Of a stretch of DNA of 64,000 bases, positions 7,563 through 33,659 are shown piece by piece (position 1 is the stretch's first letter; each line of letters begins with the position of its first letter). Both the position numbers and the translations under genes were made by a program. This DNA is from an uncultured Poribacteria bacterium. Lineage in GTDB: Bacteria > Poribacteria > WGA-4E > WGA-3G. The notes under the pieces were generated by a model. That model worked only from the letters and a program-made list of their open reading frames with translations. It was not told where the DNA came from and did not search any database. The stretch covers positions 2,536,506 through 2,600,505 of the forward strand of contig OX638316.1 in NCBI GenBank assembly GCA_951812525.1. Reading direction: 5' to 3'.

Positions 7563-7627
7563 TTTTTTTAGAACGATAACATCGAAAAAATTTAACGATT
7601 ACAAGACGCTTATGTCTTGCAGCTTCT

Positions 7628-7700
7628 GGGGCAGTAGCTCAGTTGGGAGAGTGCATCCCTCGCACGGATGAGGTCACGGGTTCAAATCCCGTCTGCTCCA
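7628..7700 (+). tRNA. tRNA-Ala (anticodon CGC)
   Basis: Acceptor GGGGCAG pairs with CTGCTCC and includes the G3:U70 wobble that identifies alanine tRNAs. The anticodon loop is CTCGCAC (CGC). The T-loop is TTCAAAT. No encoded CCA. Confidence 0.93.
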
Positions 7701-7844
7701 TACGAAATTGTGCTATTAAAGCACAATTTATCTTTGCTTTATCTTTTTCGATCTGGAATTAAATCAAATTCGTCTTGTCCTAATCGTCTATCTCATGTCG
7801 CTTGGCAGGATCGAAGTCTACTTCATGGGATAATGATATTTTAC

Positions 7845-7936
7845 GGAGAGATGCAGGAGTTGGTTGAACTGGCATGACTGGAAATCATGTGTGCTGTTTT
7901 GCAGTACCGTGGGTTCGAATCCCACTCTCTCCGCCA
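7845..7936 (+). tRNA. tRNA-Ser (anticodon GGA)
   Basis: Acceptor GGAGAGA pairs with TCTCTCC. The anticodon loop is CTGGAAA (GGA), the variable arm is long and CCA is encoded (7934-7936). With the three others it completes the four serine isoacceptors normally needed. Confidence 0.94.
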
Positions 7937-7956
7937 CTTTTGACGTAGTTTGCAAT

Positions 7957-7986
7957 GTCAGGGTCCCTACCCGGACCCTGACTTTC
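7957..7986 (+). terminator. hairpin, probable terminator after the tRNA cluster
   Basis: A perfect 10-bp stem GTCAGGGTCC/GGACCCTGAC around a 6-nt loop, followed by TTTCT. It separates the last tRNA from the SRP RNA. The T tract is short, so termination may be partial. Confidence 0.5.
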
Positions 7987-8010
7987 TATCTAACGTCTCA
8001 GATAATTAAC

Positions 8011-8310
8011 GTCTTGGCTATGCTAGGTGGGGAGGTAGCGGTGCCCTGTATCTGCAATCCGCTAAAGCAGAACTGAATCCCCAGCATGCGGCCTGTTTCT
8101 GTGGGGTCTGTCCCACGCACGTGGTGTTGATGGTTGGGTCTTGAGCAACGAGCGCTTGTTGAACCCCGTCAGGTCCGGAAGGAAGCAGCGGTAAATGAGT
8201 TGCTCGTGTGACGCAAGGGTGCCTGACCTGAGCTAACGACGTGGGCAACGCCTGGAGAGGCATGTCAACTCTGGGTGCATAGTCATCTTTAGGGCGTGTT
8301 AACTGGACTG
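8011..8310 (+). ncRNA. ffs: large bacterial SRP RNA (with Alu domain)
   Basis: The region contains the invariant Ffh-binding hairpin of SRP RNA (CAGGTCCGGAAGGAAGCAGC at about 8169-8188), flanked by a helix made from GAGCAAC and GTTGCTC. Upstream, GGTGGGGAGGTAGCGGTGCC and the sequence to about 8085 closely resemble the 5' Alu domain of the Bacillus scRNA type, so this is the long (about 270-300 nt) form, not the 4.5S form. The ends are approximate. It lies between tadA/tRNA genes and dnaX. The ORFs that overlap it are not genes. Confidence 0.9.
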
Positions 8311-8356
8311 GCGACACCCAATTCCGAAGTCGAGTTATCTAAGGAAGGATTGTGCG

Positions 8357-29517: not shown

Positions 29518-30849
29518 TTATTCCAACCCAGCATCTATAGAAATTGTTGCAAGAAAAGAATTGACTTTCCCTTTCCCACTGAACGTATTACCCGTAGCAC
29601 CCAACTTAAAAATCATACCTTCCTCAAAACGATACGTGACCCTGCCCGCTTTACCCGGTCGTATCCCAGATGCTGAGGCAAGTATAGTTTTAGGTAATCC
29701 TTCTGTAGAAAGCTCATTATTGCTTGCAAAAAGAACGAATCTACCGAAAGCCTCCGCACTCCCTACCCGGATATCAATGCTAAGTGTGCCGCCGTTTTTA
29801 AACGATGTTGCATCAATCTTGACGACAGTATAATCTTGATAGCCTGCTACCGGGGTCTGGAGTACGCTTAGGATCTCTTGTGACGGCTTTTCATCATTGA
29901 GGACAATGTTTTTTGCTTGTGCGTGAAGAAACCTATGGACATATTCCGATTGAGCTGCATTCGGTTCAAGTCCCTTACCTCTACTCGGTACCGTAGTCCT
30001 ACCAAATTGCGTCCGCACATCTGGCTTTGATGTAAGATTTAGCGCAATAGGCGTATCAATGAGTTCTACTGTCATTTCCGATGTAGCATCAAGATCGTAT
30101 GGCTGTTGAAAGCGATTCAATAATTGATTTCCTACTCCGAACATCATTACAACCAATATAACGCTTGAGGCAGCGATTGCCCACGGCAGAAAGGGATTAG
30201 CACCGGAAGGGGTTGCTGGTTTAATGTCGGAAATCTTTTGCATGATATGCTCGGTGAGATTTGCTCTGATGTGGAAACCTTCTAACGCTTCTCGGATTAT
30301 GGGTTCCGTTTTCTTTAAGCGATGTCGAGCGCGACGGAGCCGACTCTTAACAGTGCTTGCTGATACACCTAAAAACCGGCCAATCTCTTCACAGGTCATC
30401 TCCCCGAAGTAATGAAGTGTAACGACGGTACGCTCACTTTCTCGCAGTCGGGCGAGCAATCTTTGAGCCATGTCGCGTTGTGCAGCAGTCGCAGCTTTTG
30501 CCTGTTCCTCGGCGACATATTGAGAATATGACATCTTTTCAATCTGTTTAGCATCTGTGTCTTCAAGAGATTGCGTCTGAAGCCGTTTCTTTCTCTGCAA
30601 TAGAACGCATTGACGTGCAGCGATTCTGTAAAGCCATCCGGCAAAGCGACGCGGATCCTTCAGCGTTCCCAATTTCTGATAAACTTTTAGGAAAGTGTCC
30701 TGTGTAATCTCTTCGGCAATATGAAAGTCGCCTACCTTTCGCCAGGCGAGCGCATGGACCTGCTTTTGGTATTTTTTCACCAACGTCGCGAAAGCGTTTT
30801 CATCGCCTGTGAGACTACTTTGAATCAATTCAACATCGTCGTTTTTCAT
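29518..30849 (-). CDS. ECF sigma factor fused to a transmembrane segment and an extracytoplasmic domain
   Basis: A 443-residue protein. Region 2 (ENAFATLVKKYQKQVHALAW, AEEITQDTFLKVYQKL) and region 4 (RTVVTLHYFGEMTCEEIGRFLGVSASTVKSRLRRARHRL) of an ECF sigma factor occupy about 1-185. One TM (WAIAASSVILVVMMFGVG, about 225-245) follows, then about 195 extracytoplasmic residues. The last about 120 residues (SQEILSVLQTPVAGYQDYTVVKIDAT...) are homologous to the C-terminal domain of the selenoprotein N homologue directly upstream. GAGG lies 6 nt before the ATG. Fusion of sigma factor and sensor in one chain implies release by proteolysis or direct membrane signalling. Confidence 0.88.
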   Translation of the reverse strand: MKNDDVELIQSSLTGDENAFATLVKKYQKQVHALAWRKVGDFHIAEEITQDTFLKVYQKLGTLKDPRRFAGWLYRIAARQCVLLQRKKRLQTQSLEDTDAKQIEKMSYSQYVAEEQAKAATAAQRDMAQRLLARLRESERTVVTLHYFGEMTCEEIGRFLGVSASTVKSRLRRARHRLKKTEPIIREALEGFHIRANLTEHIMQKISDIKPATPSGANPFLPWAIAASSVILVVMMFGVGNQLLNRFQQPYDLDATSEMTVELIDTPIALNLTSKPDVRTQFGRTTVPSRGKGLEPNAAQSEYVHRFLHAQAKNIVLNDEKPSQEILSVLQTPVAGYQDYTVVKIDATSFKNGGTLSIDIRVGSAEAFGRFVLFASNNELSTEGLPKTILASASGIRPGKAGRVTYRFEEGMIFKLGATGNTFSGKGKVNSFLATISIDAGLE

Positions 30850-30900
30850 GTGTTACCTCGAAAAAAGGATAACTTCATTATACACTACAATAGTATTTAC

Positions 30901-30929
30901 TGTTGGCGCGTTTTGCAAACGCGCTAACA
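30901..30929. other. long hairpin between selenoprotein gene and sigma factor gene
   Basis: A 13-bp stem with one G-T wobble (GCGCGTTT core) and a 3-nt loop lies 12 nt after the selenoprotein stop and about 52 nt before the sigma ATG. There is no T run, so it may be a processing or attenuation point rather than a terminator. Confidence 0.45.
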
Positions 30930-30940
30930 GGAGAATGAAA

Positions 30941-32599
30941 CTAATGTCCGGGTGCCTCTTCAACCTCAGACTCCACAGAAATGTTAGCGCGAAAAGCGTT
31001 GATGTCCCCTTTTTTGCTAAACCAATCACCAGTTGCTCCTAATTGAAAAGATTGTCCTCGCTCAAAAATATACGTGATTTTCTGTGTTTCACCCGATTGA
31101 ACACCCCAGGCTGAGGCAAGTGCTTCCTCTGGTGTTCCTCTCGTTGGAAGTTCGGTGTCGCCATCGAACAAATCAAATGAACCAGCAGCCTCGGCATGTC
31201 CGACTGAAATGTCAATCGTAAGCGTTCCGCCATTTTCAAATGCTGTCGCGTCAATATTAACGACGGTATAATCTTGGTAGCCAGATTCTGGTGTCCGAAA
31301 AACGCCCAACACTTCCTGTGAGGAGTGAGTATTATTGAGCACAACATACATGGTGCCTAGGACAGGGTCCGAATTGAGAATCTCTGCTGCTGAGGTATCT
31401 TCAACCAATCCGGGTAGTTTCCCTGTTAAGGATTCCTGAAGGAACATCAGGTAACGTTCTGATGTGTTCCCACTGAAAAGCAAATCATTAACAGGTTGTC
31501 TACCCATCAGTTCAAATTCCGGCGAGATTACCAAAGAATCTGCTGGTGAACCTTTCTTCCACCCTCTCATGATTGCTTGTGCTAAGGCATGGCTTGTGTC
31601 AAATGTTGTGTTTTCGCGCTTGCGTCTCTTAGCAATCGGTTCCCGTAAACTCGGGACGCGCCCTAATTCAGAGTTCGGCACCCATGTGTTGATGAAATTT
31701 TCGTTCAAGAATTCGATAATTCGGTCGTCGGAGAGAGCAACTGCTCTCAGGCTTTTGCCACTCCCTCAGCACGACTCATCGGCAAGTGGTCCATCTATTG
31801 ATATCGCATGTACTGGCTTCTGTTGCGCATGCATCATCTCTAACGCATCTTCTAACGAGATCCAGTTGATTTGCTGCGACTTATAGAAACGTAATATCAA
31901 CTTACGTTCAGCCTCTTTTTGGGTGATAGATTCCACAAACTTGGCGTCTTGTAAAACATTTTGCGCTTCCGTACGGAGTTCCATTTGCGGACAAAAACCG
32001 ACATCAATAGTTCTTGTGCTGTCTCGTCCGACATCAAAATTCAACACACCTTCAGGAACGTACATCTTGAAGGAAGCGACTTTCTCACTAATCCGGTCGA
32101 TAATAAGGTGTCCGGTGAATTGAGACGGCGTGAACCGACCATCATTCAAGACGAATTCTGCGTGGATGCGGAACACGATTTCAGCAAATTCATCATTGTA
32201 GGCACGTAAGCATGCCCATAGTCCGTAAGAGTCTCCCGCATTGATATCCAAGTCCAACCTCGGATTAGGGTTAAGTTGCCTCAGTAATTCCAACACACCT
32301 TTTTCTTTAATTTCCCAGAGTTCACCAACAGAGACTGCCCTGTCTGGCAGAAAAGCATGGAAAACAGATGTAGGATACTTTTTCTCCGGTTCAGCAACCT
32401 GTAAATTCGCCAATGCATCCCACTCCACATGGAAGTTGTATTGTGTGTATTCAACCGGGGCAATGAAACCTTTGATGGATATTTCTGATATGCTGTTGAG
32501 GGTAAGTGTTATTTTGTTTTTCGCTGCCGAGTGATTATCGGCATTCAGTCGTCCACTTATCATCACCAGGATGAGAAGCCCGATGGTTAAATTTTTCAT
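30941..32599 (-). CDS. selenoprotein N (SelN/SEPN1) homologue, UGA-encoded Sec at residue 278
   Basis: Two adjacent minus-strand ORFs (277 and 255 codons) lie in the same frame with a single TGA between them (31766-31768) and no other stop. Read through, they give 552 residues. The N-terminal half has animal-SelN landmarks: FRIHAEF (143-149), FTPSQFTGHLII (156-167), VGFCPQMEL (200-208) and a KPVHAISIDGPLADESC block. The UGA then occupies the Sec position of the SelN redox motif, SCUGSGKSLR. After it, LLN-type NENFINTW, SPADSLVISPEFELMG and YLMFLQESLTGKLPG also match. The signal peptide (TIGLLILVMISG) suggests a periplasmic location. Residues about 427-545 are an extra domain shared with the sigma factor at 29518. 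GGAGA precedes the ATG. Animal SelN protects redox and calcium handling in the ER; a bacterial substrate is unknown. Confidence 0.92.
31733..31768 (-). promoter_or_regulatory. bacterial SECIS-like hairpin following the Sec UGA
   Basis: On the coding strand a perfect 6-bp stem GAGAGC/GCTCTC with the 4-nt loop AGTT begins 18 nt after the UGA, placing the loop G 25 nt downstream. Bacterial SECIS elements have a short stem with a G in the apical loop about 16-37 nt from UGA. The hairpin is in-frame coding sequence for RAVALSD. The sequence gives the geometry; SelB recognition is inference. Confidence 0.7.
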
Positions 32600-32612: not shown

Positions 32613-33659
32613 TTAATTCTTCTTCAATTTTCCCCATATCGTTATTAAGGATTGTGCGGAAGGCGAAACACTATAAAAAGGATCAAACCAATCTGGGCTA
32701 AAGTTATTTCCTTCGTCTGTTAATTGCGTTTCGTTGTGACCGTCGAGATCCGATTTATAGAGTTGTGGAGAACCTACCCGGATGCTGTAAATAAGTTCAT
32801 CACCATGTGGGGACCAGGCAGGATCAGAAGAATTATTTTTTTCGTCGGTAATCTGATGAAGTCCGGTGCCATCACTGTCTACAGTGTAGATTGTGCCCTT
32901 CCTATAGGTAAGAAAACCTTGTCCATTAAACATCGCGCCATCGAGTTTTGTAAAGGCTATTTGGTCGTCTCGTGAAGACCACGCTGGATCAAATATCCAC
33001 GGCATCTCCTTTAAGAGAAGGGTCTTTTGGGAACGTCTCCGCAGATCGTAAATACCTAATGGTGTGTGTTTCAGACCGCCCACCAAAAAGGCTATCTGTT
33101 TTCCATCAGGCGACCAACTCGGGTTAAATCCATCTGTTAATTTTTCAACAGAGTCTCCATTTACTGTCGCAACGCAAAGTGTTAGGTCGGTATAAGGTAC
33201 CCATCGTGATCCAAATTGTTCAATTGCCTTTCCTGGATCCCCTTGTGCGTAGGCAATCTGTTTGCCATCGGGTGACCAAGCTGCCTTCCATCTATATTTG
33301 TTGTTTTCAAATACCTTCTGGACATTTGTCCCATCTGCATCCATAAGATACAAATCGAAGATACCATCTCGATCCGAGCTGAACAGAATCTGTTTTCCGT
33401 TCGGTGACCAAGTTGGGGCGTAGTCGGCTGCAGGATGCTGGGTCAAATTGACCTGTTCACTTCCGTCAGTGTTCATGGCATAGATTTCGGCATTGCTATC
33501 CCGCTTTGACATAAACACGATTTTCCCTGTCCTTGCAGCTTGTGCCCATGCCGCAAAGCCACTACTGAACACGAGTAATGCACTGATAATATAACTTAAT
33601 ATGATAAACTTAGTGTAACCTTGATCTCTTGAGTGATGGACAATTGGTTTGCGTTTCAT
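32613..33659 (-). CDS. secreted TolB-like (PD40) beta-propeller protein with C-terminal WGKLK tail
   Basis: A 348-residue exported protein: signal peptide (about 17-42, ending AWAQA), then six WD40-like PD40 blades with the motif PTWSPNGKQILFSSDRDG, AWSPDGKQIAY, SWSPDGKQIAF and AWSPHGDELIYS, typical of TolB-like propellers. It lacks the TolB N-terminal domain and no pal or tolA lies nearby. The C-terminus (SVSPSAQSLITIWGKLKKN) closely resembles the end of the LamG protein at 51176. GGAGAG precedes the ATG. The selenoprotein N gene starts 13 nt downstream, so the two are likely co-transcribed. Confidence 0.88.
   Translation of the reverse strand: MKRKPIVHHSRDQGYTKFIILSYIISALLVFSSGFAAWAQAARTGKIVFMSKRDSNAEIYAMNTDGSEQVNLTQHPAADYAPTWSPNGKQILFSSDRDGIFDLYLMDADGTNVQKVFENNKYRWKAAWSPDGKQIAYAQGDPGKAIEQFGSRWVPYTDLTLCVATVNGDSVEKLTDGFNPSWSPDGKQIAFLVGGLKHTPLGIYDLRRRSQKTLLLKEMPWIFDPAWSSRDDQIAFTKLDGAMFNGQGFLTYRKGTIYTVDSDGTGLHQITDEKNNSSDPAWSPHGDELIYSIRVGSPQLYKSDLDGHNETQLTDEGNNFSPDWFDPFYSVSPSAQSLITIWGKLKKN

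Follow-up and report, generated by a model that had tools for sequence, protein, structure and literature searches.

Selenoprotein N (SelN; SELENON or SEPN1), which has been described in animals and algae (PMC7539508, PMC3473315), causes a human congenital myopathy. There is still debate over the biochemistry of the protein, which is difficult to produce (PMC7474598). Its selenocysteine (Sec) lies in an SCUG motif (PMC12839072), and the human disease residues G463, R466, and R469 occupy positions +1, +4, and +7 relative to Sec462 (PMC3541580, PMC12839072). The fold surrounding the active site is shared with the thioredoxin-fold proteins DsbH, AGR, ERp19, and UAS, from which SelN differs in having adjacent Cys-Sec in place of CXXC and a long N-terminal part of its own. 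In animal SelN the EF-hand calcium sensor is accessory and is unnecessary for homology of the core. A second system relevant here is the known class of ECF sigma factors that carry a membrane-anchored C-terminal extension and have no separate anti-sigma factor; in these, sigma regions 2 and 4 are followed by a transmembrane helix and an outer domain. Our literature search, with most subscription papers outside its reach, returned no paper linking Poribacteria with a selenoprotein or describing a bacterial SelN, and the prokaryotic selenoproteome papers checked for SelN held only unrelated "selenoprotein N..." word matches. Because this coverage is partial and an earlier note on this DNA mentioned that SelN relatives may exist in Poribacteria, we claim no novelty for the family. 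The new elements are a sigma factor partner that shares a domain with SelN, a phylum-wide expansion, and losses of Sec to Gly.

The window, that is, the whole 64,000-nucleotide stretch of DNA analyzed, belongs to a Poribacteria genome made up of one 5.06 Mb contig. The earlier note had joined two open reading frames (ORFs) into one gene with a UGA at the Sec position of the SCUG motif, and the frame bears this out: from 32599 to 30944 on the minus strand, 552 codons are open save for a single TGA at codon 278, with TAG following at 30941-30943. The gene and its surroundings are laid out as follows.

32613..33659, minus strand: TolB-like beta-propeller protein, directly upstream on the same strand, 13 bp from SelN
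30941..32599, minus strand: gene for a SelN-type selenoprotein, with one UGA among its 552 codons and TAG as stop
32537..32599, minus strand: signal-peptide-like hydrophobic N-terminus, residues 1-21 (from sequence, a model helix at 3-17, and a hydropathy rule)
31415..32518, minus strand: SelN core, residues 28-395, with a beta-rich N-terminal part and a thioredoxin-fold domain (~240-395) containing C277-U278
31766..31768, minus strand: in-frame UGA, predicted to encode selenocysteine 278 within ADESCUGSGKSLR, from the frame and homologous sites
31733..31748, minus strand: bacterial SECIS hairpin GAGAGC-AGUU-GCUCUC, stem from 17 nt past the UGA, G at loop position 2
30965..31357, minus strand: C-terminal beta-sandwich, about residues 415-545, no cysteine, common to the sigma factor
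30900..30930, minus strand: imperfect GC-rich inverted repeat between SelN and the sigma factor gene, one arm mismatch, from sequence
29518..30849, minus strand: ECF sigma factor, 443 aa, with sigma regions 2 and 4, a transmembrane helix near residue 220, then the C-terminal domain
29521..29916, minus strand: the sigma factor's copy of the C-terminal domain, with 54% identity to the SelN copy

The TolB-like gene is in a probable operon with SelN. No T run follows the inverted repeat, which is possibly an element of mRNA stability or attenuation.

Kinship with SelN is carried by the core, which lies between the hydrophobic N-terminus and the roughly 130-residue C-terminal domain and contains the motif ADESCUGSGKSLR. 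Scans of the window protein with Pfam and NCBIfam models gave no match, and phmmer found no relative among sequences of solved structures. Against an approximate human SELENON core query, the window protein aligned at E=5e-39 with 29% identity, and a lipoprotein-type paralog in the same genome, which lacks the C-terminal domain, aligned at E=1e-46 over 403 columns. We regard these alignments as a strong lead, and the published disease residues lend it further support at the sequence level: G279, K282, and R285 of the window protein occupy the positions of human G463, R466, and R469, and R285 is invariant in 37 homologues. The UGA falls within an SCUG motif, as expected of selenoprotein N. In the predicted structure of the core (pLDDT 81), C277-U278 sits after the first strand of the thioredoxin fold, and Foldseek matched this core to DsbH, AGR3, ERp19, and UAS domains. 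The motifs that had been quoted as matching animal SelN, FRIHAEF, QFTGH, and PQMEL before the UGA and NENFINTW and YLMFLQESL after it, are all present in the protein. The proposed match to animal SelN is supported for the core but does not extend to the animal EF-hand, of which a Pfam scan of the window protein found none at E up to 1. Likewise, kinship of a bacterial protein with SelN is supported, while the description of SelN as otherwise mainly metazoan has to make room for algae. SELENON and the bacterial proteins have in common the SCUG motif, the thioredoxin-like Sec domain, and the disease residues around Sec, and with the approximate human query the core aligns over its full length. 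They differ in that the bacterial family has no EF-hand, uses an in-frame SECIS rather than one in the 3'UTR, carries an extra C-terminal beta-sandwich, and forms a multigene family in which many copies lack an export signal.

The extra C-terminal domain and the link to a sigma factor, both noticed at first reading, hold up on wider comparison. The domain is a cysteine-free beta-sandwich that resembles collagen-binding, GOLD, and CBM modules at the fold level only. In the window genome it occurs only in four SelN genes, two SelN-adjacent ECF sigma factors, and one remnant; across the phylum it is found in 63 genomes, all among the 65 that bear SelN, and in none of the 20 SelN-less genomes. The neighboring protein is an ECF sigma factor, with sigma-70 regions 2 and 4, no region 3, and Pfam and TIGR02937 matches above cut-off. 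Among loci with at least 2.5 kb of flank, to which this count was confined, a sigma factor with the C-terminal domain lies on the same strand within 3.5 kb of 13 of 15 signal-bearing SelN genes and of none of 36 signal-less ones. Beta-propeller genes adjoin 20 of 35 signal-bearing copies versus 5 of 115 others. The SelN-linked sigma factors measure about 440 aa and have a transmembrane helix near residue 220. Their genes usually follow SelN at a distance of 40 to 240 bp and in one subgroup precede it; at one locus (L147) the sigma and SelN genes share a four-base overlap. They resemble the membrane-anchored ECF class, with the difference that the outer domain here is the same as the C-terminal domain of the neighboring selenoprotein. 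At seven loci (L023, L025, L028, L033, L034, L061, and L063) a second, often longer, sigma-like gene follows the SelN-linked one; its product also has a transmembrane helix near residue 220 but lacks a recognized C-terminal domain.

The SelN product is most likely an extracytoplasmic thioredoxin-fold selenoreductase for which coupling to the sigma factor is predicted, and we consider it likely that this is a true SelN-type bacterial selenoprotein working with the sigma factor in a sensing and repair unit. The signal sequence would place SelN outside the cytoplasm, where it could act as a thiol or selenol reductase. The sigma factor would expose the same beta-sandwich beyond its transmembrane helix, on the same side of the membrane as exported SelN, so that SelN, the beta-propeller protein, and the sigma factor could form a single extracytoplasmic unit. 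The two C-terminal domains might bind each other or a common ligand, matching sigma output to the state or supply of SelN, and information could flow either way. A more specific proposal, which we advance tentatively, is that exported SelN signals extracytoplasmic redox or ligand state to the anchored sigma factor through the shared domain, a selenocysteine-based transmembrane transcription switch. Since the shared domain has no cysteine, the sigma factor is not itself an obvious thiol switch. Nor is it needed for the core function of SelN, because 115 of the 150 SelN copies scored lack both a signal sequence and an adjacent sigma factor; the core starts directly in these, while the other 35 have a signal-like N-terminus by a simple hydropathy rule.

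The domain could instead be a widespread adhesive or ligand-binding beta-sandwich that a genuine SelN and the sigma factor merely have in common, with no signaling between them, an explanation that we take seriously but stop short of calling probable. Its likeness to collagen-binding, GOLD, and CBM-type sandwiches fits such a role, and the domain is present without a nearby sigma factor in most SelN copies and is duplicated in many signal-less ones; two C-terminal domains are present in 25 long forms. Against this explanation are the confinement of the domain in the window genome, its absence from every SelN-less genome of the phylum, and the tight linkage of exported SelN with the sigma factor. 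The domain tree, moreover, contains two separate groups in which sigma copies of the domain neighbor copies from exported SelN, a grouping read with node supports aside. An isolated remnant of the domain lies at 1.663 Mb of the window genome (L108:5325-5614), on the strand of a LamG-like gene and shortly ahead of that gene's end.

A search of Poribacteria, the scope of the family scan, with a SelN-core profile found the family in 65 of 85 genomes at 1 to 17 copies each: in 59 of 59 genomes of the family to which the window belongs, 6 of the 11 from two sister families, and 0 of 15 others. The window genome has six copies, of which the window gene is one. A contig scan with patterns of this protein reached Poribacteria alone; plasmid and phage collections searched gave no match. 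The closest relatives in the genome collection are from Candidatus Poribacteria MAGs, at up to 82% identity across the full protein. Sponges possess SelN (PMC3473315), which raises the question of whether the gene was acquired from a sponge host rather than belonging to an old bacterial family. Many members of Poribacteria live in sponges. Still, we judge such an origin unlikely, given the presence of SelN in 65 genomes from three families of one order, the deep paralogy, and the bacterial type of SECIS. SelN copies are arranged in tandem arrays. One stretch of the window genome (L107:3479-11362, 2.177-2.185 Mb) encodes on one strand a TPR-bearing sigma factor, an FtsX-like permease, the lipoprotein SelN mentioned above, a sigma factor with the C-terminal domain, and a SelN with it. 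Elsewhere in that genome (L104:4875-5567 and 7565-8311, 686-699 kb), two near-identical transposase ORFs flank a signal-less SelN paralog, which suggests that this copy may have moved as a unit.

Decoding of the UGA as Sec is strongly supported by sequence comparison. Across loci fetched from Poribacteria, TGA stands at 169 of 170 homologous Sec sites. Just past it is a stem-loop with the properties of a bacterial SECIS, namely, the right loop distance and a G within the first two loop bases; of 165 distinct genes, 159 have a perfect stem of GAGRGC/GYYCUC or a close variant, with a four-base loop and G second. When synonymous codons were redrawn in 200 rounds, perfect hairpins numbered 8 on average and 15 at most, versus the 159 observed. 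The Arg codon in the stem is AGA or AGG in 165 of 165 genes, against a share for AGR of only 31% among all their Arg codons, and the stem pairs GAGGTC/GAACTC, TAGGGC/GTCCTA, and AAGAGC/GCTCTT are compensatory. Downstream of the UGA, dN/dS is 0.15 to 0.20 in five comparisons, pointing to purifying selection. The host genome encodes selA, selB, selC (tRNA-Sec), and selD, all four of the genes whose presence had been proposed as a check, with tRNA-Sec adjoining selB. SelB with Sec-tRNA, bound to the hairpin, would insert Sec beside Cys at the thioredoxin-fold active site. A 2017 sponge metagenome paper found SelA and SelB enriched in symbionts. The host selD (3914052-3914975) has one in-frame TGA of its own, in CAGUASKLAP, and the selenophosphate synthetase is probably itself a selenoprotein.

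That the UGA is a plain stop, whether because the gene is broken, because the sequencing erred, or because two proteins are made separately, is extremely improbable: a TTG start is present downstream, but a TGA at one site phylum-wide, a kept hairpin, purifying selection past the UGA, and complete Sec machinery all oppose it. General reading of UGA as an amino acid in this host, for which nothing speaks apart from the UGA genes, deserves no more credence, as the genetic code is not altered: the stop codon is TGA in 53 of the 154 complete SelN genes and in 7 of the window's 31 long ORFs, and tRNA-Sec and SelB are present. We reject plain stop, sequencing error, and reassignment on the sequence evidence. 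The earlier note had named two findings that would tell against a selenoprotein. One, missing machinery with many UGA-split genes, is excluded by the complete machinery and by UGA serving as a normal stop; as for the other, sense-codon homologues in a different frame, close homologues keep the frame, and those few that have a sense codon carry Gly or Ser.

These sense-codon copies serve as natural controls. In other genomes the Sec site is occupied by Gly in five copies (GGA or GGC) and by Ser in one (TCA), and none of the non-Sec SelN copies of the phylum has Cys there; in both GGC copies the G of the SECIS loop is gone. The family also shows that a large set of related bacterial genes can keep Sec almost without exception and lose it to Gly and not Cys. 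It further supplies soluble bacterial SelN homologues in natural SelB contexts, some of them short and near the animal layout, as targets for structure and activity, and the sigma partner could provide a genetic read-out of what SelN senses. The sigma-linked SelN genes with Gly in place of Sec form a group (L142, L143, L156, L157, and L158).
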